This document shows, one piece after another, positions 1 to 58,124 of a DNA stretch of 64,000 nucleotides; position 1 is the stretch's first letter, and each line of letters starts with the position of its first letter. The stretch covers positions 2,871,058 through 2,935,057 of the forward strand of contig SCHM01000003.1 in assembly GCA_004123355.1 (NCBI GenBank). The letters run 5' to 3'. Origin of the DNA: Amphirosellinia nigrospora (Eukaryota; Ascomycota; Sordariomycetes; Xylariales; Xylariaceae). A model generated the notes under the pieces. It did not search any database. It saw only the letters and a program-made list of their open reading frames with translations, and had not been told where the DNA came from. The position numbers were made by a program, and so were the translations under genes.

Positions 1-646
1 ACCGGATTCTCGGGCCACACATTGACCTGACGACGGAACCCTTCATGATATTCTTGGAACATCTCTGGTGAGTCTTGAAATAGCTGGAATGCCTCATCTG
101 ATGGTTTTGTGTAGAGCGTCTCATTAAGATGACGGAATCGAGCAGACACCAGTTTTTCTCTCATTGCTGCTTGCATGGGAGTAAGTTTAGGGATTGGGGG
201 GCCGTAGGAGCCTGATCGTCCTTGTGAGCCTTTGATTTCTTGTCCTTTTTCTTGCTCTTTTTCGTCTCACTAGGGCCCTCTTCACCCGAAACGCCGTTTC
301 CTGACCTCGGTTCTACCTCGTCTTTAGTTGCATGCTTAATAACATCTTCTTGTAACTGTTGCTCTTTCTGCTTTTTCAACTTCTTCTTTTCCTTCAAGGT
401 CAGTCCCTTCTTTTTGCTAGCGTTTCCGGTAGATCCATCCTGGTTGGGTTTGGACTTCTTGCCTTCCCTTCCCTCAATGACTTGCTCCCATAAATCTGCA
501 ACATTGCTCGTAGTGACGTTGGAAGCTCCAGATTGTCTCTTACGCTTCTTTGAAACGTCAGACTCTCGTGGACTTTGGGTCGTATTTACAGCAGTCTCTG
601 CTTTGGGACCGTCTGCGGAGACGGCCCAGCCAGGGACAGCAAACAT
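1..646 (-). CDS. RRP8: 25S rRNA adenine-N1 methyltransferase Rrp8, N-terminal part, frameshifted, runs off the window
   Basis: Rrp8 is a nucleolar SAM-dependent methyltransferase that makes an m1A in 25S rRNA and acts in early pre-rRNA cleavage. The start MFAVPGWAVSAD at 646 matches the conserved N terminus of fungal Rrp8 as I remember it. A long lysine/serine-rich, low-complexity basic segment follows. The conserved stretch LTPMQAAMREKLVSARFRHL, then the part up to QVNVWPENP, is read in another frame and leads towards the methyltransferase fold, which lies beyond position 1. The two frames meet at a run of six G on the + strand (196-201). A seventh base would restore one frame, so I read a single-base deletion, not a stop. 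The catalytic domain is not in the window. Identity is fairly sure; the break is probably a sequence error. Confidence 0.8.
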
Positions 647-3450
647 GCTTAGGTTAGCTTGGGGGGATGGAAATGAATGATGTCTGAGAGTTCTCGTATT
701 ATATCGCAGCCCAATCGATCCAAAGTGTTGTTGGACGATGCTGTGCGGCCCGGCGTACTACATACCAAAGATATTGTTTCAATGAGCTGGGCCGATGCTG
801 CTTTGGAAACTTTTTTTCTTACCAGCCTGGCAGCTAAAGGCCCATTATTATTTTGATTTCTAGCCAATCACAAGGCCTGTTCGCCCATCCGCACACGTAC
901 AGTAAATCTACTGTGCAGCTATCCTTGCTCCTCAATTTCTGAGTACTGCAGCAATTGTTAGGGTGTTCTTCTCATATCCGGACTAGTTTATTCGACGCCC
1001 TGAGGTTATACTGAAGCAGCTCAACTCCCTGCCGATAGACTGCCTAGCAATCACAGTAATGAAATTTGGATCCCTGGCTTTCGTCCCCTGGCCTAGTTAC
1101 ACATATCCCACCGTCGCTGGCATTGCTACATCACCAATCCACCCCGGCTAATAAACGATCTCACCCACGATAGCACCAAGACATCCCGTTCGCCACATGA
1201 GGCTACGCGGAGTGTCTTGAAACATTTGGTTTATCAACTAAGACACCAGCAACCGTCGATACTCTCCTCCTTGTACGCCCCTTGTGGTACGGCCGGTTAC
1301 GGCAAGCAGGAATACATTGCCCGAACGCCGCCTTTCCAGATGCGACTAACCAGTCACACAACAGCTAGCTACCTCGGTATCTGATCAGTTCTTGGTTGGC
1401 GGGTGGCGATTCTAAACAGTGTCGTCTAGGTTGTTGAGGACGCGATGTTACTATCCGTGGCACTCACTCCCCAACCCTTTTGATTTGTAGGTATAGCGGA
1501 ATTGTCTTGTATTCCGTGGGCTATTGTCCCATCCATAACCGGAATTTCGGTCGGGCAAGGTAGGGCTGGACTTATCGCCTGTAGAATTATGTAACTCGAC
1601 ATTTCTTGTCGAGTCGTGTTTGATGACTGCACAGCATATACTCTTCAAGACCCTTGCTGCCAACTATGATAAGGGAGTTCTGAGGCGTCCAGTCTACTGG
1701 TACGTAGAATATGCTATGATGACCCGAAGGACGTTAATCTAAAGCCTTTATTTTGTCGTGCTTAGATAAGACTTACCATGCGAGCAGCAGCGTCAAGTAT
1801 ATATATAACATGGGCTTTCGGCAGTGCAATATTTCGCAGGACTTCTCTTGTCTCGTAAATTGAAACCATTGGGCGCCAACCCTGTTAACTCCAGGGCAAA
1901 CCTCTGAGGCGAGCTAAAGAAAGATTGCGAAACGGATGGTCGTCGAGTTGTCACTGTATCTCCGCCAATCATCTTCTATTGCCTTCGGGGAGACGAAGGG
2001 CAGCTTGACTGCCTGTGGAACACCCCAGGCTAGACACAACCGCTGGGGTTGTCTTCGAGGCCTGCATGTCTGATATATCCACTCGTACGCGTCTCATCAA
2101 ATGCCGAGTTTGTGTAGGACGAGGAATCATGGACGCAGTAGGAACAAGTGCGCCGCTGGTCTGCCAAATAGGATCCCGGAAAACGGCTCCGGCCATTCTT
2201 AGTTCAGCTTGTAGAGCCTGTGTGCTCCCTTCTACTGTAGCCTGGCTCGATAGACTGGATCGACAGCCGTTACTAGATTGTGGGAATTTTGAATAAATAC
2301 CCTCAATCCAGTCCAACCAACGCGATCCATCTAAGTGTCATCATCAGCTGCGCACAACTTTGTAGGTTACACCGCAGTCGAGTACATGAATAAACTGCGC
2401 TATCTTTGCTCGCAGGTTTCCCATTTCCTACCTTATTCCGACAGTTTTACAATCAAATTTCAACAAGGATCCAGCCCCAAGGACATCTCCGTATTGTTCA
2501 GCTTCTGCGGGCTTCCGAGGCAATTGGCGGGTTGGAAAGTCGCCGCCCGGCTTTGAAAGAGACAGTTCCATCACATTACCCAAGCATTTGCATTCGTTGT
2601 GAACGAGAAGACGTCCTAGGCGGAGCCGTCGATCCTTGGGCCGTAGACCCTGGATCTTTTAAACAGGGTCATCTGCCCCCGAGCTACGGTCGAAACGACT
2701 TGGGCTATATCAAACCCATCAGGTTTGTTAAGCAAGACAGGCTGGAGGCCATTTCTCTGGCGGCCGATCGGATCCGTGTGTTGCCGTCTTACGGATCTCC
2801 CAACAGTACCCCCACCATCTCCCCGGCGCCAAGTTGCTAGCGTTGGGGTGTTTTGCGATCTTGTTATTCGCCAATTATCACAAGGGGGCCTACGAGGTCT
2901 AGCCTCAAGCCTGCTCTTCTCCCGCCCACGCTGTTGGTTAGCTTCATTCATACCTACTTGTTGTCCTACCTTCTCATTGAAAGAGGTCTGACAATCTTGT
3001 TATCTGCTGGTAAGCATATCTACCTAGCCCGAGTTTTCGTCACACGGCTAAGTGTCTGAGTCGCGTGACTTTATATACTGGCACAGCTAGCCCTGATTTG
3101 ATTCTCACCATTGAGACTCAACATACGCGTCGTGATCCCATCTTTGTAGCTCGTTCTGGTTCTGTCTGTCCCTGGTTTCAAGTGCGGCCAGCCTTCGAGA
3201 GCTACTAGTTGTCCATCCTGCGATATCAACGCGGTCCATAACACCAATTAGGAAAGGACTGATGGTCTAAAGTGTCTCTAGACTACTCTTCTCGGCAATC
3301 GTCCGGGTCAAGCCACGCCAACTGCCGGCAGCATATACCCACACGCTATTGGCAAAAGGTTAACCCGGTTTTCCAACTACTAGGGAGTAATGGGTCTCAA
3401 GCAGACGGACTCCTTGCTGTAGATTATGACCAGCTGTCTAGAGTAACCAA
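647..3450. other. Long gap between RRP8 and the Zn2Cys6 regulator
   Basis: The flanking genes diverge, so this 2.8 kb must hold both promoters. Open frames of 115 codons (1969-2316, -) and 144 codons (2406-2840, +) exist, but neither resembles a known family or shows a clear intron pattern. I do not call them genes. A short TATATATAA stretch sits near 1800. I see no RNA gene or repeat. Confidence 0.5.
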
Positions 3451-3465
3451 GTGGCACTCTTGAGC

Positions 3466-6400
3466 ATGGAGTCCTCAGGCTTGGTGTTAAACGACTCATC
3501 TGCCAAGTCTCACGCGCCGCGACCCTCGTCGCCAGACGGCCATGATGATGAGGATCCCTCTCAAAAGAGAGTCCCCGTACGGAAGCGAACAAAGACTGGT
3601 TGCCTTAGTATGTCACCATTTTCTACTAACTCCATGTAAGACTCTGTACTGAGAATAATTTAGCTTGTAGGAAGCGACGCATCAAGTGCGACGAGGGGAA
3701 GCCAACTTGCAACAACTGTCTGAAATCTAAACGACAATGTGACGGCTACAATCAACGAGTCATTTTCAAAGACCCTCTTGGCGCGTTCGCCGGCGCTCCT
3801 TATGGGCCAATACAATACCCGGCCCCTTCGCCCCAGGCGTTGGTTAGGGAACAGCAGTTATCAGCTGCTCAACAGAGGTCCTCGTCTCAATCCCTTCAGA
3901 TAATCGCCCCGAAACCACCAAACGTTGATTATCGTCAAATTCCCACGCACCAATTTAGTCATTTTTATCCTGGCCAAGTTGGCCCTGTCCCGCCCCAGCC
4001 GCCTGTAAATTTGGCGCCAAACCAATTTTTGTCACAACCACAGCCGTCCAAATACACGTTTTTCCCACCTACGACGGTCGATGCCTTCTCACACTCACAG
4101 GGACAGTGGAGGCAGGATGCGCCTGGCAGTAGCAGTCAGTATCCCCATCCAGCCGCTCAAGATGGTAGCAGTAAGGGACCGACTTCAGTGTCGCCCCATC
4201 CTCGTGGGCAGCCCGATGCAGGCAGAATGTTCGTAGAAGCCGAATCGGCACAACGAGTGATCGAAGAGCCGCTCGAGGACTGGGAGTATGACATCTATGA
4301 TGATGATGCATCTATGGGCGAGTCGGACGATGAATTCCTCGCTGCACGACGAGACTCACAATTCAGTCTCGATGGAGCGGGAGTTATTACCTCACAGAGA
4401 TTTGATCATCAATATCATATGTTTGGCACCCACACGAGAACATTTTCGACCATCGGGGCGGAAACTGTACTTGCAACCTACGATCCTACACCGGCCAATT
4501 CCCCCTGACCGACAAGCATATCGCTGCGGTCTTTTGGCATTTCATGAATGTAACGGGGCCGAGTATGTCACTATACGAAAGGCATCCACTCGATCCTCCT
4601 AATATCTTTCAGGGGGAGGCGCCAAAGTCGAAGCAGCACGGATGGACCTGTAAGCGTGAAGTTATGCTAACCGGTTGATTGTCATACTAATATATTATAG
4701 ATGCGTTTCCCGTCATGTCATTTAGTCACCCAGCGCTTCTGCAGGCGATGCTCGCTCTCGGTAGCTTGCAGATCGCCAAGCTCCAAAAAGTTCCGCCAAC
4801 AGCGTCTCTTAAACATTACCATCTTGCCCTGAGAAGAATAGCGAAAAATGTTATGCGCCCCGCGAGACGCACCCAGACGGCTAATCTAGCAGCGACTTTG
4901 ATTCTTGCGTTCTACGAAGTTTGGAACTCGGATCATGATAAATGGTGTCGACACATGTTGGGTGCCCGCTGGATTATCAAGGAGATACCGCTTTCTGAGA
5001 TGACCAGGGCAATCATGGGAATAAAAATGAAGAAACGAATCGCTGAAATAGAGAAGCCCCAAGCTGGGAACTTTAGGGATTACTCTTCAACAGAAGACTC
5101 TAGTTTTCTATATAAGGATTGGGACATGATGGATGTATCGTTGCTGAGCATGATCATGGGCTATGAAGTTTCCTATGATGACCTTGGTATGCTGCCAGAA
5201 GACTTGAGTTCACACCCAAGGCCGAAATATATCTACACAAATAAGGACATGGAGAGATATGAGCAGCTGAGTGACCTTTTCTGGTGGTACTGTAAGATGG
5301 ATGTTTACCAAAGTATCCTGGGTGGGACTCGTCCATTGTGAGTACTTGGTTTATGTCTTTTGGGGCCACTGATACTGACGTGCTAGCCTACAATATGAGA
5401 CTTGGATGCAATGTCCGCCGAGGTCGCCAATGGGGAGACTAGATGCTATGTGAGTTACGGGAAGTCATAAATGGGTTTGACGACGCAGAACTGACGAGGC
5501 TTAGATACGGGAGTTACGATTACCTAATCCTCCTCTTGGGCCGTCTCGTCAATTTCGTATCTAGCGATCTTGCGCGAAAACGAGAGGCGCTGTCACGAAG
5601 CGGATCCGGCAGCCAGTGGCCGCCGCCAGGCATGTTTACGGGCATGATGCCAGCTTCCGAAAAAGTGACGCCGCCAATGGGCTTCAGTCCTCCGCGGGAA
5701 GAGGACTCTCCGCCGCGCAGCTCTGCCCCCCGGTACCACACAGATAGCGATCTCGATACTAGAACTGTCGAGGCGCTTCGAGAATGGGAGCAGATCCTGA
5801 TGGCCTTTCACGAGATCAAGCATCACTTTGGCCCAGACTTCGAGCCACTGGGGGCGGACATATACCCGTCACAGATGACGCCCTACGGCCCTGCCACGCA
5901 CTATCGGACATATTCGATCGCTGGCATCTGGATGAACTATTACATGGGGCTCATCGTCCTCCATCGAGCCCACCCCAAGATGCCGCCCGTAGCCATGCTC
6001 GCCGCTGGTATGTCTGCTAGCACCACCATGCCATGGTGACTCCAACTCTGTCGAATCGCCGCGGGTCTCGAAGAAAACATCTCGCATCTGAAAGTCGTCA
6101 GTACGTTGATGGGCGCTGCATTGATAGAATCCGCATTTCCCCTTTTCGTAGCGGGTGTCCAGGTAAATCAGCTTTCCTCTCACATTTCCTATACTTCTTG
6201 TGGCGCGTCCACTCTCCCCACGACCCCCTCAGTGTGGGGTGATATACTTTTTTTTTATCTAGTATTTCGCTGACAATGCTTGCTTTCCACAGCTCCAGGA
6301 TGAGACTCAACGACACTGGCTAGTCCGTCGCCTTCGCGACATAGCCCGTCTGACCGGGTGGCAGTCGGCGCACCAAATCGCCGACGGCTGCGAATCGGCG

Positions 6401-6766
6401 TGGTCGAAGGCGGCCCAGCTGGGCCGGGGTCCTCCATACAAGTCGGCACCAGCGACCGAAGACGAGGCGGCTGCGAAGGAGGTGCGGAGCCGGCACGAGG
6501 CCAAGAAGCGGCAGCCGCCGCATCCGCTCGACGTCGCGCCACCCGGTATGTCCTGGGTCTGGGGCAACCCGCGCCGGCTCGACCGACGTATCCAGGAGGT
6601 CGACGCGGCCGCTGGCGCTGGAAGTGCGGGAGACAGGGTGGTTATGGATAGCAACAAGAAGATTGTGCTTGCCAAGGGCGAGAAGGCGTTTTATGCCATG
6701 GGCTTGCTTACTGTTGAAGAGGATCTTGAAAAACTGGACTTGGACTCTGGGGATCGGGAGAAGTAA
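3466..6766 (+). CDS. Zn(II)2Cys6 fungal transcription factor, frameshifted
   Basis: This is a fungal binuclear zinc-cluster regulator that should bind DNA in the nucleus; its target pathway is unknown. The cluster has spacing C-X2-C-X6-C-X6-C-X2-C-X6-C (from GCLTC to KRQC) and is split by the first intron. A Pro/Gln-rich linker, an acidic patch (EDWEYDIYDDD) and a long helical fungal-TF regulatory domain (HPALLQAMLALGSLQ, LDAIYGSYDYLILLLGRL) follow. Exons by my reading: 3466-3607, 3664-4649, 4701-5337, 5387-5449, 5505-6007, 6074-6162 and 6293-6766, about 964 aa. An ATG at 3451 adds five residues. One base is missing in the C5 run at 4501-4505. The 6008-6073 intron has a GTATGT donor and removes an in-frame TGA, but the skipped stretch (LQLCRIAAG) looks coding. 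It may instead be an exon with a real or erroneous stop. Confidence 0.8.
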
Positions 6767-7160: not shown

Positions 7161-8166
7161 TTAGTTCGCAGGTAGCCGCTGGACAACCGCAGCCATCTCC
7201 GTATCAGTGTATATTCTGAATCCTTTCTCTTTAGTCACACTTGCCAGTTGTACGTTCTTGGCATCTAGCTTCTCCTCCATCACTTGCTTTAAGGTCTTTA
7301 GAACGAGCAATTCGGCGTCTACAATCGTGAGAGACTGTTCGCAACCGTCAGTTGACTGATTCACACAAGGTAGAAATTATAGCACCATGGGCTCGGAGAT
7401 TATCTTTGGGATTATCTTTGGTGGGACTTGCCTTGTGGTATTCATTCTGTAGCTCGGCCTGTGCACCTTCGCTTCCCGAACCAATGGCTTTGGCGTCATA
7501 GCGGTAGAAGGTTCCGCTCGGCTCAGCGTGATATAGCTGGGGGCCATCCTCGTCATAACCAGCAATAAGTAGGGCGACACCAAAGGGACGGCTCATGATG
7601 CTCTCCTCGCCATCAGCGCTCTCGCCGAAGCGAAGAGCCAGGTCACAGATGGCCTGTGTGGTGCTTTCGATACGCAGGTTCTCGTTGTAGTTGAAGGCGT
7701 GCGACTGGCACTCGACACGGGCGTGATCGACCATGCTGCGGGCGTCTGCTTGCAGGCCTGACATGGCACATCCAATGTGCCGGTCAATCTCGACAATCTT
7801 CTCGACGGACGACGCCTCTAGGAGCGTCGACGTGACCCGCTTCTCTACACCCAGCACCACGCCCTCCGATGTCGCCACGCCGATCGCTGTCGAGCCGAGT
7901 TTAATTGCCTCTAGGGAGTATTCGACCTGGAACAAACGGCCTTCGGGCGAGAAGGTGCTATGAACAGGCGGTTAGCACGAGGGGCGGATGGCGGCCTTGG
8001 TGAAAGCTTCAGGAGCTTGCGAGGCGTGTTGGGGCTACACGTACTTGATGCCACGATCTGTTGAACTGGGTGTTAGTAATTCTAGAGGCTCTAGAGCTCA
8101 CATCATGGAGCTGTATGTGATGAGTGGCTGGCACCACTTACCATATTCAGATCTTGCCATAAACAT
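7161..8166 (-). CDS. PUP2: 20S proteasome subunit alpha5, with a GC-AG intron and a 13-nt exon
   Basis: This is a structural alpha-ring subunit of the 20S core, which gates entry to the proteolytic chamber. The N terminus [20 protein letters not shown] and then [14 protein letters not shown] are the proteasome alpha signature; the C-terminal part includes [19 protein letters not shown]. Exons: 8166-8142 (25 nt), 8057-8045 (13 nt), 7957-7432 and 7334-7161, giving 245 aa, the usual length for alpha5. The third intron (7431-7335, 97 nt) begins AAG|GCAAGT, not GT. It has a CTGAC branch site and an AACAG acceptor, and its removal joins NEYHK to SLTIVDAEL in frame. No indel is needed, unlike many neighbours. 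It shares a 557-nt divergent promoter with GCP2. Confidence 0.95.
7335..7431 (-). other. PUP2: GC-AG intron of PUP2
   Basis: The donor is AAG|GCAAGT, a strong match to the known GC-AG donor consensus. The branch is CAACTGAC and the acceptor GAACAG. Read through, the intron meets an in-frame TGA; spliced, it restores a well-conserved alpha5 sequence. Confidence 0.85.
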
Positions 8167-8723: not shown

Positions 8724-11589
8724 ATGTCTTCAAGGCTCTCCAGCTATGCAGACCGGCGCTCCAATGGCACCGATAGCGACGGTAACCCGAGGCCACGAGC
8801 TGGCACATCGTTCTCAGGCACCGCGCGCGCATCAGCCGATTCACGCGATTCGCGACCCGGCCGTTCACCTCAGGTCGGCTTCACCAACCCAGCCCATAAA
8901 CGATCAGCATCAGGAAATCCCGACCTGCTAGTCGTGTCGTAGAAGAGCGAAAGACCGAGCGGTTGACCGTGACGAGAGAGAAGCTCATTAGTCGGACAAA
9001 GAGCCCCGAGAGGCGCCCCAAGGAAACCGCCCAGCCAGAGAGAGATAGATGGAGGCCGAAGGAAGCCCACAAGCCGCGACAGCCCGAGACGAAGCCCAAG
9101 GAGACCAAGTCAGAACCGTTACCCAGTGAGGCTGACTATATTCTGCTGTGTATATAGAGGACTTGGCTAATTATATGCGTTATCAGCAACATGGGACCTG
9201 TGGCAACTCTCGCGCCACATTCTACCGCTCCCCTCGCGATTCGCATATCAATACGCCCTTGGCCTCGGAAGCTCCTTCCTCCCAACAGCCCAGCCCCTTC
9301 ACGGTTATCATTGGAAGCACAGGAGGCGGTTATGATAGGGATCTGCTATTCGTTTTCATGGCTATGAGGGGCAATACATTCGCTACTTGTACGGATATAC
9401 CCAAGCGACGAGAGGATCGACTACAGGGACCAACCTTCAAGATATTGCCAGGGCTGGATCCAAGTTTACAAGATTTGTCGTTAGCTATGCTTCAAATGGC
9501 TACTCATCACTCTGCTCTCGAAATGTTCGTCAACGTACAAAGTCGGGAAGAATTCGGCATCGTCAACCACGCCCTTTGTGCCGCAATCAGGAAGTTTCTA
9601 CACGATTACTTGGTCATGGTCGCTCAGCTCGAACACAATTCCTGACAAATGAAACATTTACTTTACACCTTCTTCATGTCCACACGCTCCCTACCAGCCA
9701 GATGATGTCCCAACTTTATGCTTTGGCCTCGGATCTGCTTAAGAGAAACGCACTTTTGGATGTCGAGAGTGAAGAAGAATCGGATGCTGACGACTTTGAC
9801 AATATCATAGAAAATCTAAAGCGAGGCGGTGATCTTGTGCCAGGCAACATGACCGGGAAAAAATATGCAAGGGTGGTGTAGTCATCGAGCTAATAACAAA
9901 AAGGCTGGAATCTATGTCTGGAGACCCAGCTGCCAGAGCGTTGCTTACCTCTCTCTTGCGAGATGCAAGTCGGCCCTACATGGCTATGCTCAATGAATGG
10001 CTTCATCATGGCGAAATCAAAGATCCACATTCCGAGTTTCTGATCAAAGAGCAGAAGAGCATACGACGCGACATGCTAGAACAGGATTATACGGACGATT
10101 ATTGGGAAAGGAGATACATGATACAGAAACAAAACATCCCCCCTCAACTACAGGATGTCAAGGACAAGGTTCTACTTGCCGGCAAATATCTCAACGTTGT
10201 GCGAGAGTGCGGCGGCGTGGATATTAGCAAGGTAACTCGAGACGTACCTACCTCATTTGACGACCCTCGGTTCCTCGACAATGTCAACAACGCTTACGCC
10301 TATGCCAAATGAGTCGCTCATGAAACTCCTATTAACCACTCATGCCCTTCCAGCGAGGCTGCGGTCTTTAAAACATTATTTCTTTCTTGATCCATCTGAT
10401 TACTTTACCTACTTTATGGAGCTAAGTGCGTCAGAATTACGCAAACCACTTAAATCTGTCAATACGGCCAAGCTACAATCGCTTCTTGATCTTGTTCTCC
10501 ACCAACCTGGAAGTATAGTCTCCTTGGATCCATTTAGGGAGGACGTTCATGTTGAAATGAACGAAGTCAGCCTCATCAAGATGTTACAAAGAGTTGTAAA
10601 TATCACGGGGATTGAACAAGGAGAGTCACTACAACCCCTCAGCAACCAACCCGTCGAAAACGACAAGAATGCAGTTGGGTTTACGTCGTTACAAATAGAC
10701 TATCAGGTGCCATTTCCTGTATCTCTGGTTATAAGTCGCAAGACCGTCTGGCGATACCAAGCACTCTTTCGCTATCTATTATCGCTGAAATATCTAGAGT
10801 CCCAGTTATCTACAACTTGGCAAACTCACAATACTGGCATTGTGTGGAGCCACAAGTCTTCGGCTAGGAAACTGGAGATTTGGAAAAGGCGAGTGTGGAC
10901 ATTGAGGGCACGAATGGTTGTGTTCGTGCAACAATTACTCTACTTCTGCACACTGGAAGTCATCGAGCCGAATTGGCAATCTCTCATGTCGAGACTGAAA
11001 GCCAAAGACGGCAGCTCGGACGGCTCCGGAAAGCCAGACCGGACAGTTGATGAACTAATGCAAGATCATGTGGATTTCTTGGACACTTGCCTTAAGGGAT
11101 GTATGCTAACGAACGGCAAGTTGATAAGAGTACGCGTTGTTACAATCTTCCCAATTATTATATACGCTAATCGCCATTAGATTCACTCCAAACTGATGCA
11201 AACCTGCACCGTGTTTGCCGCCTATACCAATTGGCTCTCTCGAGAACTAGAAAAAGCCGATCCAGACCTTATTGGCCCTATTAAGCCGCCTAACATGTCG
11301 AAAAAGCAATGGACACGATTCCAGACGGCAAAAGCCCAGAAATCATCTAGTGATAGCGCTTCAAATAGTCAGCTTCAAGATGATTGAGGGCCGCATTAGT
11401 AATCTGTTTGAATCATTAAGAAGTGGGGGACCAATTTCAGCCGACACTTGCAGATCCTATTAGATGCTCTTGAATCATTACGCGGCGACAGAGACAGTAG
11501 TATTGTTGAGTTTATGTGCCAGATTAGCCACGGCCAACCAAGGTACTGAGTATGCCGGATTACGAACTGAGGAGGATATCGCCCCTTGA
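8724..11589 (+). CDS. Gamma-tubulin complex component 2 (Spc97/GCP2), about ten frameshifts
   Basis: GCP2 pairs with GCP3 to form the gamma-tubulin small complex that nucleates microtubules at the spindle pole body. Family features: KILPGLDPSLQDLSLAML, SREEFGIVNHALCAAIRKFL, SGDPAARALLTSLLRDASRP, GKYLNVVRECGGVDIS, ARLRSLKHYFFLDPSDYF and RKTVWRYQALFRYLLSLKYL (Spc97/Spc98 domain). A basic Ser/Arg-rich N terminus starts at MSSRLSSYADRRS. One clean intron lies at 11130-11180. The frame changes near 8920, 9145, 9360, 9411, 9632, 9860, 10308, 11377, 11418 and 11472. Six look like a missing base and four like an extra base, mostly at runs such as C3 and A6. Allowing for them gives about 938 aa, normal for the family. 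The residues stay conserved in all frames, so this is an intact gene with sequence errors rather than a decayed copy. Confidence 0.85.
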
Positions 11590-12256: not shown

Positions 12257-12832
12257 TTAGGCACCCGTAACCTCCTTCACAACCCGCGCAAGTTCAGCCT
12301 TCTCGACATCCAAGCCGTCCAGCGGACCCCCAGGAGCCAGGAGCGTCTTCATCACGTCACCTAACTTCGGTTTCTCGCCCAACCCAGCCACGACATCCCC
12401 CACGATGGCTCGGAGCTGGTCTTTGCTAAGCTCTTCGACACCACTGCCGGCGACGTACTCGTCCAACACGGTGATCTGCGCCTCTTCCTTGGCGGCCAGA
12501 TCATCGCGACCCGCGGCCGCAAACTCGTCCCGAGCTTCGGCACAGCCTCGCCCCTGCTTGCGGAGCAGCGCCAGCGCAGCGTCTGTGATGGGCGACGATG
12601 TCTTGGATGCGTTCAGCGTCGCCGATAGTGCCCCGCGCAATACGGATAATCGCGCCGCGTCCTTGGCGCGCATCGCTGCCTTCAGGTCCGCCTTGAGCTT
12701 CTGTAATAGAGGCGGGGCTGGCGCATCGCTGTAGCTGCGTGCGAAGGCGACGATGGGCGTCCTGCAAGAGGACAGCCCGCTGGTCCGAGCGCGGAGCAGA
12801 TTTGTTGATAACCGCATGCTGGGGAGGGACAT
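12257..12832 (-). CDS. AIM41: YqeY/GatB-domain mitochondrial protein, AIM41-like
   Basis: This is a single-exon, 191-aa protein. Residues 1-35 are rich in Arg and Ser with no acidic residues (MSLPSMRLSTNLLRART), like a mitochondrial presequence. The YqeY-type helical domain follows: LQKLKADLKAAMRAKDAARL, then a block ending EEAQITVLDEYV and a C-terminal bundle with LGEKPKLGDVMKTLL. The bacterial relatives share a tRNA-binding fold with the C-terminal part of the GatB amidotransferase subunit. The role of the yeast protein AIM41 in mitochondria is poorly defined. The reading frame is uninterrupted and strongly GC-biased at third positions. It is convergent with GCP2. Confidence 0.85.
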   Translation of the reverse strand: MSLPSMRLSTNLLRARTSGLSSCRTPIVAFARSYSDAPAPPLLQKLKADLKAAMRAKDAARLSVLRGALSATLNASKTSSPITDAALALLRKQGRGCAEARDEFAAAGRDDLAAKEEAQITVLDEYVAGSGVEELSKDQLRAIVGDVVAGLGEKPKLGDVMKTLLAPGGPLDGLDVEKAELARVVKEVTGA

Positions 12833-13544
12833 GGTGATCGTCGAGATGGAGGTCGAGCGGGTGAGATCGAGGCTACCGGTTGCTAGGTTGTTGGATACGG
12901 CTCGACCGGGGTAGGAGGCTGGCTAGCTTAGAGAAGAATGTGACGGGGATGGTTGAAATTTGAAGCCCTGAAATATTACAATTGAGCCCTGGCGTTCAAT
13001 TGGCCAATGAAAAGCGTTAGTGTGGTTGGATATACTTTGTCCCCTGGCTAGGTAGGTAGCAATGACACGGACCCTTCCCCAGGGGGCGACACACCGACGG
13101 CACCTACCGTACCTAGTTCGACATGGTAAATTCTGCCCTACACAAATCTCAAGGTCAATGCTATAAAACTTAGGTATTCGTTACCTATCTTTCCTTTCTT
13201 TATACTCCTCTCCGGCACAACTAATGCCTAAATATCTACATACCTAGATAGATTAGGTCACGGGTCTAGTCAGGAGGCATGCTTATATTCTGCCCCTAAT
13301 TACCACATGTACCAACCAAGACTGGCTGCTTGTAAGTTAGGTAGCGTACAGCATACGAGCCCTTAGGCACCGAGGTACTTTAAGATACTAAGGTAGTAGT
13401 AGATTGCCAGACAAAACAGAGTATTTGCCTGTTTGAGCCATATTGCTTGGTTTTGATTCGTCAAAGCCGGCAATAGAGCTCAATCCTGTTGTCTTGGCAT
13501 AGGACTTTTTTTTCATTCACTTTTGTGCTTAGTGTTGGGCATCA
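12833..13544. other. Gap upstream of AIM41
   Basis: 712 nt holding the AIM41 promoter and the end of the next gene. It is dense in TAGGTA/TACCTA/CCTAGG motifs (for example 13045-13055, 13105-13112, 13235-13258, 13337-13342). No coding sequence is seen. Confidence 0.5.
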
Positions 13545-44163: not shown

Positions 44164-47100
44164 GGTAACAATCTGTCAGCGAAAATGGTACTGTGGACTC
44201 GGAATAGTTGAGACGTGTCTAGTCTATTGACCGGTGTTATGCAGAGAATAAAAGAATAAGCTAAAGCAACGAGTATCAAGACGGGGTGTTGCTGTTATGT
44301 TTGGCCCGCACTGCTGACTGCGTAGCCACACAGGTGCACAGGGAGATAGTCTAAGGCAGGGCAACGGGCTCAGATGAAGCAAAACAGGAACGGCTCCTCC
44401 GTCGTGACCGAGGCTTGACGTAGTAATGGTCTCGAGACCAACCCAGTCAATGCTTGACCGGCTCGGGCATAGACACCTTAGTACTTGGGCGGGGGGTGGA
44501 CAGCGAAGTGCAATTTTTCTATAGTCCGGACCAACCACGTAAGGGGCAGTTATAGCGAAACAGTTTGGAGATTGGTGTGATTGGGCTGAACATAGCTGCT
44601 TATTAGGCATGCATAATGACAGATCTAAAAAATGGTGCGTGAAGGATGCAGAATGGGGACGAGAAGAGGAAGGAGAAGGGGGAGAAGAAAAACAGGAGCA
44701 GAATGCGGGAATGAGTGAGGCTTCTTGTTGCTATTGGCAAACGCTGACGATGATGGCTTGCATGGGGCGGGCGTGTGCGTTGGCGGTCAACAAGGCCCGA
44801 GAGAGGTGTGGCTTCGACTGGTCCAAGACCTCTGAGTCGATGAATGGATGGATGGATGGATGATGGATGGTTTAGGTATTACTACTTAGGTATGCCGTAA
44901 GCGGAGCAGAAGAGAGAGGGAGAATAGGTAGCCAGAGGGGCACACGAGAATGGGCGGATGGAGAGATAATGTCTAAGTAAGTAAGTAAGTAGGTAGGCTG
45001 TCCAGCCCACCAGCCCACCAGCCCCAGTGTCAGTGCCAGTCGATTTGATGACAGGCTGGGATGCAATGCTACCTTGGATATAGGTAGGGAGGGTAGGTAG
45101 GTACCTCAGTAAAGAGAGGGGAAGAGACAAGTCTTGGATTAGGTAGGTAGTGGGATGGAGGGACGGTGAGCGATGCACCACTAGGTACCAATTGCGAGTT
45201 GGAGTACCTAGCCACGAGCCACGCCGATGTACGACTATAGAACTGCAAAGCAGGCACAAATCCCGACCTTGCCGCCTCCGTCTTAGTGGCTCTCGGCAAC
45301 ACTGCCTGCATCAGTCTGATCAGGGGCGCCAACCTCTCTACTAAGACAACCGCTTCCCAGATAGTACCTTGCTCAGTTCAATATTCTACACATGCTGTGC
45401 TACCTACTGTGCCTATAACAGATGAGGAGACAACAACACATGGGTGCGCCCAATATCACGATGTCGACCTAGATTTGACGGCTATTTCATGTCAACGGTA
45501 TCGAGAGATCTGTTGAATTCGAGGTCTAGGAGGATTCAGAAACAGTGAATATTACTTCATCATCCATATTCCACGTGATACTTCTTATTCTCCAGGTTCA
45601 GCAGTGGTTTGGTCCATCGCAACGCACGTTCAACCAACTGTGTCACAACTGTACCGACGCGAACATTGTATTGGGTATCAATCCAATAGATAAGGACGGC
45701 ACCAATCGCAGGCGACCCCCCAATCGGTCATACTATGCAGGTATCGCGAATAACAATAAATTCATGGACGTCAAAATTCAAACCATCGTCTTGATTGGGG
45801 GCGTGCGGTGCAAATGCGGGGATTTAGACGGTGGTTCCTATTCGACAACTTGGATTTAACAAATCACAGCCGCCCCCGATCCCGTGGGGTGGAATCTGGA
45901 ATCTGGAATCTCGGGTCTAAATGATTACATAGTAAATGATTTCAGACTAAGACAGGTAGATGAAGAGGGGTACTACCCAACGAGCGCTACGCCAGTCTGC
46001 GACGGCGTCAAGATTACCCCTCGCTGAAGCCAAAGTAGTCGAGACCGTAAACGGTAAGTCAATGCGGCCAGGGTCACTGACAACTCATCTACGTAGGCTA
46101 TCCTTTTCCTCTTCCGTTGTTGGTCCTCAAATCCTTGGCGCTATTCCCACACGGAGTTCATCGGGTAATTGCGTGAATTCTCGAAATCGATTGTTCAGCT
46201 TCCCTTATATAACCTCTTCATCGCTCACTGAGTAAAGTAAGGGTAGACCGAGGACTCCCAATGTGGTGGTTCGGATACAGAGGCTCTATATTTAGTTCCC
46301 GTCTCGTCTGCAAGGGTGTTCCAAGTTCGGCAACCTCCCGGCTGCTTGGTTATAGTACAGTAGTGTATGCTTGGGGCAAGTGTAAATACTATCAGACATG
46401 CGCGATCTGGGCTGGTAATCTGCGCACTTGTGCGCGGTAGCGTGTAGAAGAGAACGAACCCAAACCGCGTGGAGCATGGCATGGCATGGCCCAAGGTTAG
46501 ACATCTACCCGTCTGGGCAAGCTAAGTCATGTGGACAAACCGACACGTAGGACACTACCTTTAACCTACAGCATGGCTCGCCTGTATGCATGCTACCTCG
46601 AGGTTAGGTAAATGACTTATGCGGGCTTGTGCGAGATGACGTGGAGCTAGGTCTGACTAACCAGGCTCGTTGAGCTAACTTCTAGAATTGATCGGAGTAG
46701 TATGGAGAGAGGAGAGAAAGTGGTTGTTTATCGTGAATGGGCGATATGGTATATAGAACATGCCAAAGCACGTACGCATTTCGGCGGAATTATCATAAGC
46801 AATGTATACCCACTCAGGGGGGTAAGATTGGGGCTGACTGACTATGGTTGAAAGTGCAAATATGTGTGACGTACCTAACAGAAAGAATATGAATAAGGAA
46901 ATAAGTAAGAATGTGCCTCAATATCGCATCTTCAAAGTTGCCAAGTGAGGTGCCCACAAGGTGACGAAGAGGATCGTACCTCTTGACCTACGTACTTTGC
47001 CCATCCTATACCATCATCGTGAATTATGTGGGCTAACTAGGTACTTAGTAGTTAGTGATCACGACATTCCATTTTTGCAATACACTACGGAATCCCTCAT

Positions 47101-48475: not shown

Positions 48476-51400
48476 TTACTCGTCCTTGTCGCTTGCAGTG
48501 CTGGATGACCCATGCTCCTTCTTCCATTCGCAGATCCTGCAGGTATTCGCCTTTTCCTTATCGAGGTTAGGAAAGACGAGTTCGAAAATCTCCTTGTACC
48601 AGCTCGCGGGATGGCCTTCAATGCCCTGCTTAATATTCTGCAACAATGTTAGTGCCGTAATACTGAAGGATTCTAGACTCATGTTGCCACGCGGGCGAGA
48701 CGTACCTCGGGAAGTTCTAGCCAGTCAGACATGTTGTCCTCTGGGAAAATGATCATCTTGCACCCAGCACGACGTGCAGCCACCGTCTTTTCCCTCAGGC
48801 CACCTATCCTGAGAACCTTACCGGTTAGAGTCAACTCGCCAGTCATGGCAATAGTGGGGTCCACGGGGCTATTCAGGGCCAACGATAGAAGAGAAGTGGT
48901 CATGGTGACGCCGGCCGACGGGCCATCTTTCTGCACGGCCCCTTCTGGCACATGCAAGTGAATCTTCGCCTTGTCGAAGAAGTGGTTGTCAGAGAATTCA
49001 TTGGCCATGTACGCCTTGGAGAACGAGTATGCGATGGTGGAGGATTCCTTCATGACTGTCTTGAGATTACCCGTAATTTCTAAGCCTGGACGGCTACTGG
49101 GGCGCAAGGCTGATTGGAGGATGGACTCGATGTACATAGCAGAACCACCTAGCTGGGTCCATGCGAGACCCATGGCGACACCAGGCGGCGTAACATCATA
49201 AAGACGATCGGAAGTGAAGATTGGAGGGCCAACATAATCCTTCAAATTCTCCTTGTCAATCACGACGCTAACCGACTCAGGCACTTTGAGAGCAACTCGG
49301 GGTTTCTCGGTAGTCTCCTTTTGCAATGCTTCGGGGGAGGTGGGCTCTTTGCCCTCGCTTGTCTTTTCTGATTCTTTCATGGCTGCTTTGCCCTCTTCTG
49401 TCAATGCTTCAGACTCCGGCAAGACTTCTTCGCCAAGTTCCTGTACAATTTTCAGAGCTGATTTGCGGTAAACCTTCTCGATTTGTTTCTTGAGGTTCCG
49501 AACACCCGACTCTCGGCAGTATGATTTAATGAGTTCCTCGATGGCCTGATCCGAGAGCGAAACGTCTACATTCTTAAGACCTGCAAGCTCCTTTGCTGCT
49601 GGCGACAGGTATCGATCCGCAATTGCTTTCTTTTCATCGGATACATAGCCAGATAGCCGTATAACCTCCATACGGTCAAGTAAGGGTCGGGGTATTGTGT
49701 CCGTCATATTAGCTGTGCAAACAAATAGGACTTTGGAGAGGTCGACGGGAACGTCCATGTAGTGATCCAAGAAAGAGCCATTCTGCTCTGGGTCTAGCAA
49801 TTCAAGAAGAGCTGAAGATGGATCTCCTTGGTAGCCACGTCCAATCTTATCTATCTCGTCGATTAGAATCAGAGGGTTTTCAGTTTGACACTTCTTGAGA
49901 GCTTGGATGACGCGTCCAGGTAGAGCACCAACATAGGTGCGCCGATGACCTTTGATTTCTGCCACATCTGTAAGACCCCCAACACTAAATCTGTAGTACT
50001 GGCGGTTCAAGGCTCTGGCAATTGACTTGCCAATGCTTGTTTTACCAACGCCGGGGGGACCGACAAAGCACAAAATCTTGCCTTCCACCGTGCCTCGAAG
50101 TTTGCCCACGGCAATAAACTCTAAAATTCGATCTTTGACATCCTTTAACCCGTAGTGATCTTCTTCCAAGACTTCCATGGCATGCTGAATACCAAAGTTT
50201 TCAGCACTCCTTTGACCCCATGGTATCTGTGTCAACCAATCTAAATAATTTCGCGTTACGTTGAATTCGGAAGCCGCGGGCTCGAGATGAGCAAGCTTGT
50301 TAATCTCCTCATCGAAAACCTTGCGCACCGCCTCAGGCATGGCGAGTTTATCGGCTTTGGCCTTGAAATCCTCTACCAACTTATCCTTCCCGTCAGACTC
50401 GATGCCCAGTTCACGGCGAATTCCTTTCATTTGCTCCATTAACCAGTACTCACGTTGGCGTTTCGTGATTTTTTGCTCAACGTCTTTTGTGATTTTCGAT
50501 TGTAACTGTGCATTCATCAATTCCTTCTTCAGGACCACAAGAGCCTTTTGCATCCGATCCTCCACATCCAGGCTGGAAAGAACCTCTTGGAGTTCGGCAG
50601 GTTCTCCGGCTGACACCGCTGCGGCGAAGTCGGCGAGCTTAGCGGGCTCTGCAGTGACGTTGCCCGTTGACTGGCTCATGGAGAAAGTCGAGATTTGATC
50701 TCGGAAGAGGCTGTTCATTGTGGCCACTTCCTTGAATACGTTGACAATCTCGTTCGTTACCGCTCGTATTACCGGGCTCTTCGGTCAAACGGCTCCTCAA
50801 CGAGGTTTTCTACATTTACCAGGCTGACAGGGTATTTGCGTAGAAACGAAGTTGGTTCGTATTTCTCGGGGGTTGGGTCAGACTTATTCACCACGGCGCC
50901 TTCCTCAAAGCTTGCGACTACGTCGCCCTTCTTCTCCGAGGGGGGTTGCTCTTCGGGCTTGGGAGGTATTGGGTCTGGGATATCTGTAGTTTCGGGCTCG
51001 GCCTCGGTCTTCTTCTGCTCCGGGGCGGCGGGCGGAATCAAAGTAGTCAGCTTAATCCTGCGGTGCGGATACAAGATGGCCGTCAGGCTGTTCTGCTCTC
51101 CGTGCACAGGGAAAGCGCTCGTGATCTGGGCAAAAACACCAGTATCGTAAACATCGGCCGGGTCTCGGATTATATCCTCATCTGCGTTCTCATCTTTGAA
51201 CAAGAAGGCGCCGACGTAAGGCTGGCCTCTTTTGATCATGTCCTGTATGGCAGCACAAACATTTGGATCCTTGATGGTAATCGCTTTATAGAACCCGGGG
51301 AATAGCGGTCGCTTTGCTATAGGATCGCCATGACCTGTGGATACACCTCGGGAATCTCTGGTTTTTGCAGCGCTCTGTTCGTGGTCCTTTGGCTAGGTTT

Positions 51401-51880
51401 CCTACCGCCATCGCCCGGGGTGTCGTTGCCGGATCCCGACGATGCGCCACCAGTTGCGCTACTTGCCTTGCCGTCCTTTGAGTTGCCCTCGCCCTCGCCC
51501 TCGCCATTGCCCTGATTATTATTCGGCGACGGCGAGTCTGCGGTGGAGTTTTTCGTCTCGCTCACCTCCTTCTCTGGTTGTTCCGATTTTTCCTCCACGT
51601 TCGTGTGCGAGTCTTCGTCAGTCAGAGCCGGGGCCTTGTCGTCGGGGGTGTCATTATTCTCTTGTTTCCACTGCGTGGCCGAGTTGGAAAAGGGGGATCT
51701 GTGCAGAAGTCCAGCGCCGGTAGGTCTCGAAGGATTGAGGCAGACGATTCGAGGTGTATGGGGCCTGTCTCGGGCATTTATGGAATATAATCTCGCTGGG
51801 CGTGTCAAGCGGGATGTGAGTGAGAACTGGGGCGATGTCCGCACGGCCATCTGCCGTGATAGACGTTGGCGGCACAGCAT
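48476..51880 (-). CDS. PIM1: Mitochondrial ATP-dependent Lon protease, two frameshifts
   Basis: Pim1/Lon is the matrix AAA+ serine protease that removes damaged proteins and maintains mtDNA. The start at 51880 ([19 protein letters not shown]) gives an Arg/Ser-rich presequence; an ATG at 51991 would add 37 less likely residues. A low-complexity linker and the N domain ([18 protein letters not shown]) follow. Then come Walker [17 protein letters not shown], Walker [18 protein letters not shown], the protease serine in [15 protein letters not shown] and the catalytic lysine region [16 protein letters not shown] 68-nt intron (48705-48638) joins DWLELPE to [18 protein letters not shown]. One base seems missing at 51322 (before PIAKRPLF) and one at 50780 (giving [14 protein letters not shown]). 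From there 682 codons run uninterrupted. Corrected length is 1112 aa. Confidence 0.93.
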
Positions 51881-51905
51881 CGTCGAGAGGCTCGCACAGG
51901 AAGAG

Positions 51906-51939
51906 GGAGACGGCAGACGGGAGACGGGAGACGGGAGAG
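51906..51939. repeat. GACGGGA tandem repeat
   Basis: Three to four copies of GACGGGA lie just upstream of the chosen PIM1 start codon, in its leader. If the more upstream ATG were used, they would encode part of an unlikely Pro/Ser-rich N terminus. Confidence 0.75.
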
Positions 51940-51991
51940 GCTCGGATGGGGAATTTTTCGACGCAACGGCGGCCCTTGCGGGAGGAAGCAC

Positions 51992-53702
51992 ACGATCGGT
52001 GCGATTATAAGAAGTATACAGTGCCTATGCTGAATAATACAAGCCGGTGAAATTATTAAAGCGCAAGCAGTGACACGAGACTGTCCCCATGCCTCGGTCG
52101 AATGCACATCCGATTGTTGCTTCTACTAAATACTCACAATATTTCAATAAGACTAGGCGGATTATCTAATAAATCCTTACATCATCACTGAGCTGCCTTA
52201 CTAGTAGATATAGCTGACCCACTACCTAGCCTAACTAACCTAGTTAGGTCGGTTAAAGCTCGGCCGTTACCGGACCGCGAGTCACTTGCTAACGCCATCT
52301 CGACTTGTTCCATTAACTTCCCCAAACCCGAGTATTCCTAGCGAAACTAATTACAAGGTCGATTTACTTCACGTCTAGCTATCTAGAACATTTGAGTCGA
52401 TCAGTCTACTTGTTGCACACGAATGCGGAGGGCATATCATTAGCATGTTTTTCTCCCAATCGTAGTGGCTGCGTCTTCTTCCATAAGTCAAGCGTACATG
52501 TCAGCCTTCATACTCCTCAACATCGATCATTTTGTCAAGGGCCGCTTATACTCACTCACTAGGGTAAGGAATTAATAGTCTAGTGCGCCATCACGGAAAT
52601 AACGAAAAAGTCGCGAGTTTATTCTATCGACAATATCCATCGACATGCCATCTACAAATCAAGTTGCAGCCGTCATGTAGTAAGCCCCGAACCTTCGCGG
52701 CTACATCAATTTCGCGTTTAGATTTATCTTCTGGAAACTGCCCCTGATACTTGTTGGAAGCTTGAATTGTTCTTGCTTCTCCTCTCGGGCCATTTGTTCG
52801 TCGCTCAAGTCATATAGGTCTAGGGTAAGCGCAAAAGTCACTATCATACTTGCATGCAAAAGCATCGCCTAGTGTCTTGGTGATGTGGCAACGAAGTTGG
52901 TTGACGCCATACCGAGCTGCAAAACGATTCAATCCCGGCGGGCAGTAATTAGCAGCAGCGCTAAAAAAACGAATTTCCCATGCAGTAAGGTTGTCGGGTG
53001 ATTGATTTAGCGGTAACGTAGGAGGAGGCTTGTTTGAGGTTGGTCAGGCAGGTAAGCAGACAATACCCGGTGGTTACTGAATAACAGAGGGGAGAGGAAA
53101 ACTCAAAGAGAACCTGGAAGGGTTCGTGAGTGTCCAGGCAATGTTATGGATTGAGTGGAGTTAGGTGTCGTGTTCGGAAAGTCCAAGTTATAAGTAGTTG
53201 GTTGTTTGGGGGAAACTACTGAGGTAGGTATCTAAGTTGAGAATTATATACACAAGGTACTTATATTTAACAGATCTAACGACTTAATGAGAACTTTTAA
53301 GGCAGTAATACAAAAGGCCAACCAAAGAAAGGGTGAATTAGATAGATTTCGTCTTGACGTGTTGGCCTCAGCTGTACCTTTGGCAGATCGCTAAGGGTGC
53401 TTAGGTAGAGTATTCCTAAGCTATTTACATATAATTAATAACCATAAGTTCATATGTAGCACTCTAGAGCACTGGGTTGTACTCACAGTGTATGAGGTTA
53501 GGTAGTATTGACATATGTATATAGGGATGTGGAGGTAATTATGTGTTGAATTGCGTCGAATTGCTTCATTATAATATTACCAATCTCAATTTTTCAAAAG
53601 GGAGTAGAATCTTTCTTCCCGGTTTCTCCAATTACCTCTTTGCTTTAGGTACCTTTGCCGGCTTTATTGTTATCACAGTTGCTCTTGCTAATTTCAGTGC
53701 CT
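51992..53702. other. Gap between PIM1 and RRN5
   Basis: 1.7 kb. The PIM1 promoter lies at the left, and the 3' end of RRN5 on the right. TAGGTA/CTAACCTA motifs recur (52220-52250, 53220-53260, 53400-53410). No supportable coding sequence. Confidence 0.5.
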
Positions 53703-55510
53703 TTAGTCATTAATGCTCGCGCTGTTATTGTTGTGAAGCACAGCCCATAGTTCCCTCTCGGCCGCTGCGCTAGTTTGCACATCAAGCAACTCCGCATCGC
53801 GTTGTAGTCTATGCTCGGCGCGGGTCCGGGATTTGATAATATGTGTCGCATCCTTGCTGGCGACGGTATGTTCAGTAGACGCCATGGACATCATCGCTTC
53901 TTCTATGTCTAGTGCTACCGCGTCCCAGTCTAGACCGTCGTCTAGGTTTTCTTGTTGATCTTCCATTTTGATGTCTCCTTCGTAGTCATCATCATCATCG
54001 CCGCTCTCTCTCCCTCTTCAGAAAATTCCTCCCCGTGAGCTTCTTCGTCCGCCTCGTCGTCGGGACTGTCCAATATATCGATGGTAGACGCGGTAAAATT
54101 GAGAGGACTAGTTCTTCTGCGCATATTATCGACGGCTGAGTAGCCAAGCGCAGCTTCAACCTCATCATAGCTCATGATTTCACCATGGTCGCCCTCCTTC
54201 TCTACTCCTGTATTCTGTTCAGGTCCCTCTGTGCTCCCCGATTCGGATTCCACAGTACTCAGTATTCGGCCGTCTCTGTCCGCCCCTCCCCGCTGTCTGG
54301 TTGGGAGTCCTCATGCTCCTGGTCAGTGAAGTTGTCCTCTCCGATCATATCATATACGACATCCAACTGCAGTCTCCTCGCGCACCGTGCCCAAAACTCC
54401 CTGAATTATGTTTCATTCCTAGCGATGAAACCGCAGCGATGACATCTTCGACTCTTATCTGAAGTTTCTTGTGCCTTTGCACTACTTCAAAACTATTCCT
54501 ACGAATGCGGGATTCCGCCACGTATATCGCAGCAAATAGCAAACGTCTAGTGACACTGACCGCTAACCCGTAAAAGTCTCCGAGTGCCGTCATTTGCATA
54601 GCGGGCGGTTCGTATTCTTCGGATGCGTTACGCCAGTTGTTATCCGAGACTATTGAGTTCATGAATATCCGATCAGACAATAGGAGCCAGTTTTGAATGC
54701 AGAAAAATTGGAGGGCCGGCAATTCATCGAGCCTTCCCTTTCTTTTCTTGTTTTTCGTCGTCCAACTGTGACTGGTCTCCGCGATCCTGCTCTTCGTCTC
54801 GCCGTCGTTCCTCCTTCTGCCTCCTCTGCGATTTTGGCTGTGGCGTTGGTGTTTTAGAGCGCTCCCGCTGTTGATTTTCGAAAGTTTCCACAAGCGGCGC
54901 CGTGACGCGCCACCACGAGCCCCAACGCTCCTTTTCTACCTGTTCTTCATAGCTCTCCTGACGTAGCGATAGCGCGTCCGCAGCCGCCTCCAACGCGGCG
55001 CCGCACTCGGCACTGATCTCCACCGCAGCGGGAATGTCGACGGGCCGCAGGGAGTTTTGCCGGACGCCCTTCCCCTCAGTCGCATCGAGAAGTACCAGGT
55101 ACTGACGCACCTCGAGCTCGCTCTTGGTCCCTATTCGCACGGAGATGCCTGCAGAGTCACTTCTACCGAGTCGGCCCACGGCGGCGAAGAAGGCATTTCT
55201 CTCAGCTGTGCTCCACACCACGGCCCCGATCTGCGTGTCGGTGTCCTCTCCTACTTCGTCATGGATGAATCCTAAAGATGCGTCGCTAATGTCCTGGTTT
55301 AGCAGCTCTAGATACGCGGCATTGAAACCACCCTTCATCCGCTTGAGGGGTGGGACCTGTGGTTGCGATCGGGCTTTCTAGCCGTCGCTTCCTGCGAATG
55401 GGTATGCTGCCTTGTATTGGCGAGACAGCCAGTGTGTTGTGTATAGGCGGCGAGGTAGTTTCATTCTCGCTGCTCGGTTCGCGGTAATCCTCATCTGAGT
55501 CTAAGTCCAT
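53703..55510 (-). CDS. RRN5: RNA polymerase I upstream activation factor subunit Rrn5-like, SANT domain, five frameshifts
   Basis: Rrn5 is part of the Pol I upstream activation factor at rDNA promoters. The protein starts MDLDSDEDYREPSSENE. It has a basic patch (PIRRKRRLE), then LKRMKGGFNAAYLELLNQDI leading into a SANT/Myb-like domain (GAVVWSTAERNAFFAAVGRL, RIGTKSELEVRQYLVLLDA). A Glu/Arg-rich charged linker follows, then a C-terminal helical block (LPALQFFCIQNWLLLSDRIF, RRLLFAAIYVAESRIRRNSF) and an acidic tail. It looks intronless. Frame changes: extra bases near 55380 and 54737, missing bases near 54400, 54262 and 54002. Corrected length is 602 aa. Family assignment rests on the SANT block and overall layout, recalled from fungal Rrn5 proteins, so it is good but not certain. 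Confidence 0.7.
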
Positions 55511-56138: not shown

Positions 56139-58124
56139 ATGTCACGATTGGTTTCGAGATGGTCTTTAACGGCAAATGTATCGCGACTCATCCCATTGCT
56201 CAGGTCTGTGAGATTGCCTCAGACAAGGCTAATCTCGGGGTCTCCTCGCGAGTCGCAAACACACCCGCTCGAACCTGTGCGCCTCCGTGAATATCAGGAG
56301 GAATGTATACAATCTGTTCTCTCATCTTTAAAATATGGCCATAAGCGAGTTGGTATATCCCTGGCCACGGGCGCCGGCAAAACAGTGGTTTTTACTCAGT
56401 TGATCGATCGTATCAAACCTAGCTCTGAATATGCTACTCAAACAATCATCTTAGCTCATCGACGGGAGCTCGTGGAGCAAGCAGCACGGCATTGCAGCAA
56501 TGCTTATCCCACCAAAAGCGTTGAAATTGAGATGGGAAACCTACACGCTTCGGGGAGGGCGGATATCACGATTGCTAGTATTCAGAGCATCACGTCCGGG
56601 GACAGAATCAGCAAGTTCGACCCCAGGCTTTTTAAACTTGTGCTTGTAGATGAAGCTCACCATATCGTGGCGGCCGGTTATCTGCGCACCTTGGAGCATT
56701 TTGGTCTTCATGAAAAGAGGATGAGTCCCGATTCTTATCGGCGTGTCTGCAACTTTTTCCCGTTTTGATGGTCTCCGGCTCGGAGCTGCCATTGACGAAA
56801 TCGTGTACCACAAGGATTATGTCGACATGATTGGGGATAAGTGGTTATCGGATGTTATTTTCACGACAGTTGAGTCTACTGCGGACATTTCGAAAGTGAG
56901 AAGAGGTGCGAATGGAGATTTTCAGCCTGGTGAGCTCTCTGGTGTGGTAAATACGGACCAAATAAACGAGATCACGGTTCGCAGTTGGCTGGCAAGGGCG
57001 ACTGGAAGAAAATCCACACTTGTCTTTGTGTTGACCTCGCTCATGTCAGTGGTTTGACACGAGCTTTTCGCCAGCACGGCATTGACGCCAGATTCGTGAC
57101 CGGAAATACGCCAAAGCTTGAGAGGAGCGACCGCCTGGACGCATTCAAAAGAGGTGAATTTCCAGTTCTCGTAAACTGTGGCGTTTTCACCGAAGGTACC
57201 GACATTCCTAATATCGATTGCATTGTGCTTGCGAGGCCGACTCGCTCTCGCAACCTTTTAGTACAGATGATTGGAAGAGGCATGAGATTACATCCTGGCA
57301 AAACCAACTGCCACATCATTGATATGGTGTCCAGCCTTGAAACCGGTATTGTGACAACCCCGACACTTTTCGGGTTAGATCCCTCTCAACTAGTTGAAGA
57401 ATCCTCCGTGGATGCGATGAAAGATCTGAAAATCCGTCAATCATCGGAGCAGGTACGAGAAGAGGTTATTCCGGCAGCGAATCCGTCTCTTGCCCACTCT
57501 CACGGTGATAGCAGTGTCACATTCGTTGAATATGACTCTGTATTAGATTTGATCTCAGACACATCTGGCGAAAAACACGTTCGTTCAATTAGTATGCACG
57601 CCTGGGTGCAAGTCGGACCGGATCGATATATACTCACCGGTCCGAAAGGGACGTATATCCGACTTGAGAAAGTCGAGAAGGAAACAGAGGACCAAGCTGA
57701 ATTTGAGGCATGGGAAATACGTGCATTGCCAAAAGGAGTGTCAAAATCACCCTTTGCGGCACCCCGAAAGCTCCTCCAAGCCGCCACGTTCATCGATGCT
57801 ATACATGGTGCTGATAAGTACGCTTCCGAGAAGTATCCCCGTGTACTCATTGCCAGATATGCGAGTTGGCGAAAGGGCGAGCCCACCGAAGGTCAACTTA
57901 AGTTCTTGAATACGCTACGTGGAAAGAACGAAGAGCTCAAAGTGAAGGATATCAATAAAGGTAACGCAGCGGACATGATCACGAAACTTCGCCATGGGGC
58001 TCGAGGTCGATTTGCCATACATGAAGCGGATAAGCGACGGTTAGAGAAAAAAAGGTCTTCACAGGAGCAACAGGAAGCTATGAAGCTTCGAGAGCAGGTC
58101 TCGGTCGGGCCGCTTATGGCATAA
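56139..58124 (+). CDS. IRC3: Mitochondrial SF2 helicase Irc3, two frameshifts
   Basis: Irc3 is a branch-migrating DNA helicase needed for mitochondrial DNA stability in yeast. The N terminus ([20 protein letters not shown]) is a good presequence. Helicase motifs in order: [15 protein letters not shown], motif [35 protein letters not shown], motif [11 protein letters not shown], motif [15 protein letters not shown], motif IV STLVFCVDLAHV and motif [21 protein letters not shown]. It appears intronless. The frame changes near 56731 (one extra base, or two lost), just before motif III, and at T3 57025-57027 (one missing), inside motif IV. Corrected length is 661 aa. The C-terminal part after motif VI matches the Irc3 layout as I know it. 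Confidence 0.88.

Follow-up and report, generated by a model that had tools for sequence, protein, structure and literature searches.

Long-read assemblies can contain errors that fragment genes through frameshifts and premature stops (PMC12007338). The closest described case, in the cited parts of PMC7500977, is that of nanopore-only assemblies of Drechmeria coniospora, in which conserved genes were broken by insertions or deletions (indels) in homopolymers and were fixed by short-read polishing. We analyzed a stretch of 64,000 nucleotides (the window; C5:2871058-2935057) in which the reading frames of conserved genes change repeatedly. It belongs to an assembly of 48,114,038 bases in 11 contigs, the largest of which is 13.8 Mb. 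The genes and short introns of the window fit a filamentous fungus, and the likeness to the D. coniospora assemblies, as far as those parts of PMC7500977 describe them, extends to chromosome-scale contigs and to the same fault in genes. The D. coniospora platform is nanopore (PMC7500977, same parts), whereas the platform here is deduced. The tool presented in the cited passages of PMC12007338 addresses small genomes, whereas the present case is a 48-Mb eukaryote; frameshifts from long-read error are common to both.

We conclude, with a probability of about 0.96, that the frame changes are residual indel errors of a long-read assembly incompletely corrected with accurate reads. An earlier note on the window had likewise proposed uncorrected sequencing error rather than gene death, and this proposal is upheld by the same shifts on other contigs and by indels in the 18S and 5S rRNA genes. 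The finding is right in kind but ordinary: it serves as a warning about quality and is neither a discovery nor a real biological feature. Wherever this assembly suggests a lost gene, a pseudogene, a split gene, or an odd intron, accurate reads should be consulted first.

Frame changes in conserved protein genes

Each frame of the window was scanned separately for protein families, with stops written as X. Profile or structure matches were obtained for an RRP8-like methyltransferase, a Zn2Cys6 protein, GCP2, a YqeY-domain protein, a PI4-kinase, an SNF2-family protein, an acyl-CoA desaturase with a cytochrome b5 domain, Lon protease, a ResIII helicase, and a SWIRM/Myb protein. In the gamma-tubulin complex gene GCP2 (8747..11177, + strand), Pfam matches are divided by frame: the N-terminal profile is covered from 2 to 114 in one frame and from 136 to 286 in another, and the third frame holds the C-terminal profile. 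The match to human GCP2 is nonetheless continuous over the pieces, which align in order to residues 234-340, 369-529, and 527-778; the last two abut, and several of the frame changes have zero gap. In the RAD5-like SNF2-family gene (32310..35633, + strand), SNF2-rel_dom is spread over two frames, covering profile positions 1-85 in one and 80-287 in the other, with an overlap (80-85) that is also present in the genome; the frame change lies at about 33.98-34.00 kb, with zero gap. Since the GCP2 junction at residues 529/527 and the RAD5-like junction both have zero gap, there is no space for an intron at either. In the Lon protease gene (PIM1; 48479..52024, - strand), Lon_C, AAA, and Lon_lid share one frame and the 3' frame is long and clean, whereas the LON substrate-binding domain is split between two frames; near 50.77 kb, there is a 13-base overlap between two open frames. 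The earlier note had described frame changes within conserved genes, with conservation continuing in the next frame, and such changes were seen again in these three genes. The gene that it labeled SNF2 has RAD5 as its best match in the Protein Data Bank (PDB; E 9.9e-62).

To count shifts, we used a three-periodic coding model that allows for frameshift states and scores introns by their splice sites; it places shift sites only to about 30 bases. A first version, in which introns were cheap, masked the shifts and called three for the window; by our own choice, it gave way to one with splice-site scoring and other penalties. At a penalty of -8, the model called 28.55 kb of the window coding and placed 27 introns and 20 shifts there (14 missing-base and 6 extra-base), that is, 0.70 shifts per kb coding; the count was 25 at -7, 18 at -10, and 14 at -12. 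It placed five shifts in GCP2 (near 8.94, 9.15, 9.63, 9.87, and 10.31 kb), two missing-base shifts and one intron in the RAD5-like gene (near 33.08 and 33.98 kb for the shifts), and shifts near 51.33 and 51.79 kb in Lon, where the frame change near 50.77 kb is additional. In a 50-kb control from Escherichia coli K-12, none of the shifts called at the four penalties fell deeper than 45 bases into an annotated gene; the 13 to 16 calls were all at or near gene ends, and the 11 to 13 false introns were located outside genes or across gene ends, none wholly within a gene. This control is a limited one, as E. coli genes are tighter and their codon bias is different. The 20 window shifts are probably an undercount, because the splice score is negative for 4 of the 27 introns and because a weak intron (50.71-50.77 kb) was chosen at the Lon junction despite the 13-base overlap of frames. 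The total of 37 shifts in 12 genes given previously was not reproduced (14 to 25 shifts over the four penalties), nor were most of the per-gene counts, although 37 may be closer to the truth than 20. The accompanying observation that missing bases are commoner agrees with the model (14 versus 6).

The same shifts occur elsewhere in the assembly. In 21 other stretches (163.7 kb, of which 63.4 kb was called coding), 7 of which are loci brought in by a proteasome match, the model found 38 shifts, comprising 24 missing and 14 extra bases (0.60 per kb). Window and other stretches together thus hold 58 shifts, 38 missing-base and 20 extra-base; these coding counts omit L013 (12% GC), L023 (letters available for half of it), and L002, the last of which lies within the window. 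Pieces of CCT/Hsp60, Hsp70, and proteasome genes abut in different frames on contigs C1, C4, C5, C6, C7, and C8. We inspected 16 such junctions, chosen by eye for abutting ranges from the CCT, Hsp70, and proteasome tables and read with the help of profile ranges and of known motifs of HSP70, CCT, and the proteasome. Fourteen are zero-gap shifts, one is a canonical intron, and one is ambiguous. Twelve of the 14 fit missing bases (one base in 11 cases, four in the other), and two fit an extra base, although one of these could instead lack two. Given a rate of 0.60 per kb elsewhere against 0.70 in the window, and essential families affected on six contigs, the cause is not local. Essential genes, reported previously as hit in the window, are thus also hit on other contigs (CCT, Hsp70, and proteasome).

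Indels in ribosomal RNA genes

Ribosomal RNA has no reading frame, and indels in its genes therefore decide between error and biology. Two rDNA units of contig C10, aligned over about 5,990 bases, differ by no substitution and by seven short indel events, which corresponds to about 0.6 indels per kb per copy (seven events in two copies of about 6 kb). A third unit, compared over 5 kb, has no mismatch to either of the other two and differs from them by one and five indels. Six of the seven events lie in runs of at least 4, which hold 7% of the bases (binomial p of about 8e-7). Two of the seven shorten G runs in the mature 18S rRNA that have their full length in the Rfam consensus and in the other two units; a third, near these contractions, is an extra base, and the remaining four lie outside the well-aligning part of the 18S rRNA.

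The search for 5S rRNA genes scored 47 of 2,127 candidates, and 2 of the 33 matches (L057 and L058) were excluded as poor. Only 11 of the 31 well-scoring copies have 120 bases; the other 20 are shorter. Among the 17 copies that we assigned to the main type by eye, there are 10 deletion events and no insertions, and 8 of the 10 fall in runs of 4 to 5, which make up 11% of the gene. Comparing rDNA units and 5S copies in this manner offers an inexpensive way to test for such error when neither reads nor a related genome are at hand.

Other features of these loci were also noted. Contig C10 starts inside the rDNA array, with 5.8S at 104, 43832, and 58339 and units about 14.5 kb apart (offset 14507; L059-L061). 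A group I intron lies within the 18S rRNA gene (L059:2120-2455; Rfam RF00028, 56.8 bits), and more introns are likely in this gene, because its match extends over 2,942 bases with additional long insertions. The 5S genes (L026-L058) are dispersed over the chromosomes and are of several sequence types.

Probable sequencing error and its rivals

Under the proposed explanation, the errors would be mostly single-base and rarely longer, and they would extend over the whole 48.1-Mb assembly, as suggested by their occurrence in every large sample examined. The observed rate is about 0.6-0.7 per kb coding, with a bias toward missing bases; where a site could be placed finely, the change often contracts a homopolymer. 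The genes of the living organism would be intact, and accurate reads would be expected not to support the given bases. The earlier note had named long-read or pyrosequencing-type errors; we retain the former and regard the latter as less favored, because contigs reach 13.8 Mb. The link from contig size to platform rests on general knowledge of platforms, and a nanopore-type platform is the most likely.

Several observations weigh against this explanation. The coding model's 58 shifts show no excess of runs of at least 4 (0.058 versus 0.057 of the posterior mass), and 658 and 1,204 of 5,000 resamples reached the observed homopolymer means. Compared with a single consensus, 251 letters are substituted, 39 are deleted, and 2 are inserted in all 31 5S copies together; since this family varies by substitution too, some of the differences in length among its copies may be real. 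Two of the rDNA units, A and B, are nearly identical, and unit C may be an unusually poor one. After polishing, the D. coniospora assemblies had more insertions than deletions, in the cited parts of PMC7500977, whereas missing bases prevail here (38 versus 20). There is a very small chance that the organism truly carries a minority of the shifts, or of the variants in 5S and rDNA length, for example, as a lineage with unstable homopolymers.

The earlier report that many of the window shifts lie in or beside homopolymers is not supported at the resolution of the coding model: no excess is visible at its sites, although their placement to about 30 bases weakens the test. Among 12 finely located deletions elsewhere, six are at a run of at least 4 if the missing base is counted and five in the sequence as given. 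Extra-base sites of the coding model have an excess of runs of at least 3, which 2 of 200 controls reach; we leave this result uninterpreted. The depletion of homopolymers by run length is uninformative, the window being similar to E. coli and slightly lower in long runs. The uneven density of shifts described previously is not supported: the ratio of variance to mean is 1.02 in 28 one-kb coding bins of the window and 0.94 in 83 bins overall, and a stretch of 682 clean codons has a probability of 0.24 at 0.70 shifts per kb.

As general causes, neither gene death nor introns nor programmed frameshifting hold up. Pseudogenes, or a mutator lineage whose homopolymers are unstable, could be imagined: the given sequence does contain the shifts, and homopolymer contraction is, from general knowledge, expected after loss of mismatch repair. 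However, the shifts are not confined to dispensable genes: CCT, Hsp70, the proteasome, and the 18S rRNA are all affected, a combination that a living fungus would not be expected to tolerate, and the rDNA units carry indels with no substitutions, whereas decay brings both. That the genes are truly dead or dying is accordingly very unlikely. Protein conservation persists across the shifts, both in GCP2 against its human counterpart and at the inspected CCT, Hsp70, and proteasome junctions.

It is just as improbable that the breaks are short overlooked introns, even though introns do account for the breaks in the OLE1-like and RSC8-like genes and for one CCT junction, and the model places 27 of them in the window. 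At the 14 zero-gap junctions among the 16 inspected, the pieces abut or overlap in both genome and protein coordinates, which leaves no place for a GT...AG segment of about 45 bases or more. Introns were open to the model as a choice, and it tends if anything to call too many (11 to 13 in E. coli), yet it still retains 14 to 25 shifts in the window. Programmed ribosomal frameshifting or RNA editing that repairs the frames would explain why conservation runs on across a shift. Inspection by eye of the 16 junctions revealed no common slippery context, though; the shifts go in both directions, and untranslated rRNA genes carry the same kind of indel, which leaves this possibility an extremely remote one. 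Residual indel error of a long-read assembly accounts for the whole picture at a single rate, about 0.6-0.7 per kb in genes and about 0.6 per kb per copy in rDNA.

Other genes of the window

No shift was seen in two of the window genes that had been reported as clean: a proteasome subunit gene (earlier label PUP2; 7382..7957, - strand; PF00227, E 2.0e-45), which is a single open frame with no internal stop, and a YqeY-domain gene (earlier label AIM41; 12260..12922, - strand), which matches PF09424 in one of three frames (E 2.7e-19). The 5' part of an RRP8-like gene (161..757, - strand) matches Methyltransf_8 over profile positions 3-59 of 219 (Pfam E 2.7e-16), and the gene extends beyond the window. 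In a Zn2Cys6 transcription factor gene (3491..6763, + strand), Zn_clus and Fungal_trans_2 are found in two different frames, and the coding model places one missing-base shift near 4.42-4.50 kb and six introns. The PI4-kinase gene (earlier label LSB6; 23679..26090, - strand) matches PF00454 in only one of three frames (E 6.4e-11); the model gives four shifts as well as introns.

A putative kinase gene (41351..44175, - strand; three shifts and two introns in the model) has a Pkinase match with an E of 8.2e-07, whose 29.1 bits are below the Pfam cutoff of 31.7. A candidate RRN5 gene, so labeled earlier (53706..55377, - strand), has two shifts and one intron in the model; Pfam and PDB searches of this gene gave no match, leaving its identity unconfirmed, and it was one of two fragments for which PDB searches were without a match. 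The DEAD/ResIII helicase gene (earlier label IRC3; 56236..58121, + strand) has ResIII and Helicase_C in one frame, and the model gives one extra-base shift and one intron.

Breaks modeled as introns are seen in two further genes. The OLE1-like gene (36687..38408, - strand) encodes an acyl-CoA desaturase with a cytochrome b5 domain (PDB acyl-CoA desaturase, E 1.3e-21; Cyt-b5). The model explains its breaks by four introns, one of which has a poor splice score and could be the same as the single OLE1 shift listed previously. In the RSC8-like SWIRM/Myb gene (61832..63905, - strand), SWIRM is in one frame and Myb/SWIRM-assoc in another, and the break between them is explained in the model by an intron (63215-63324). 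Outside the window, the 10-kb stretch L013 (C4:5000001-5010000) has a G+C content of 12%, compared with 44 to 57% in the other fully lettered stretches sampled, and it may represent a centromere or a region mutated by repeat-induced point mutation (RIP).

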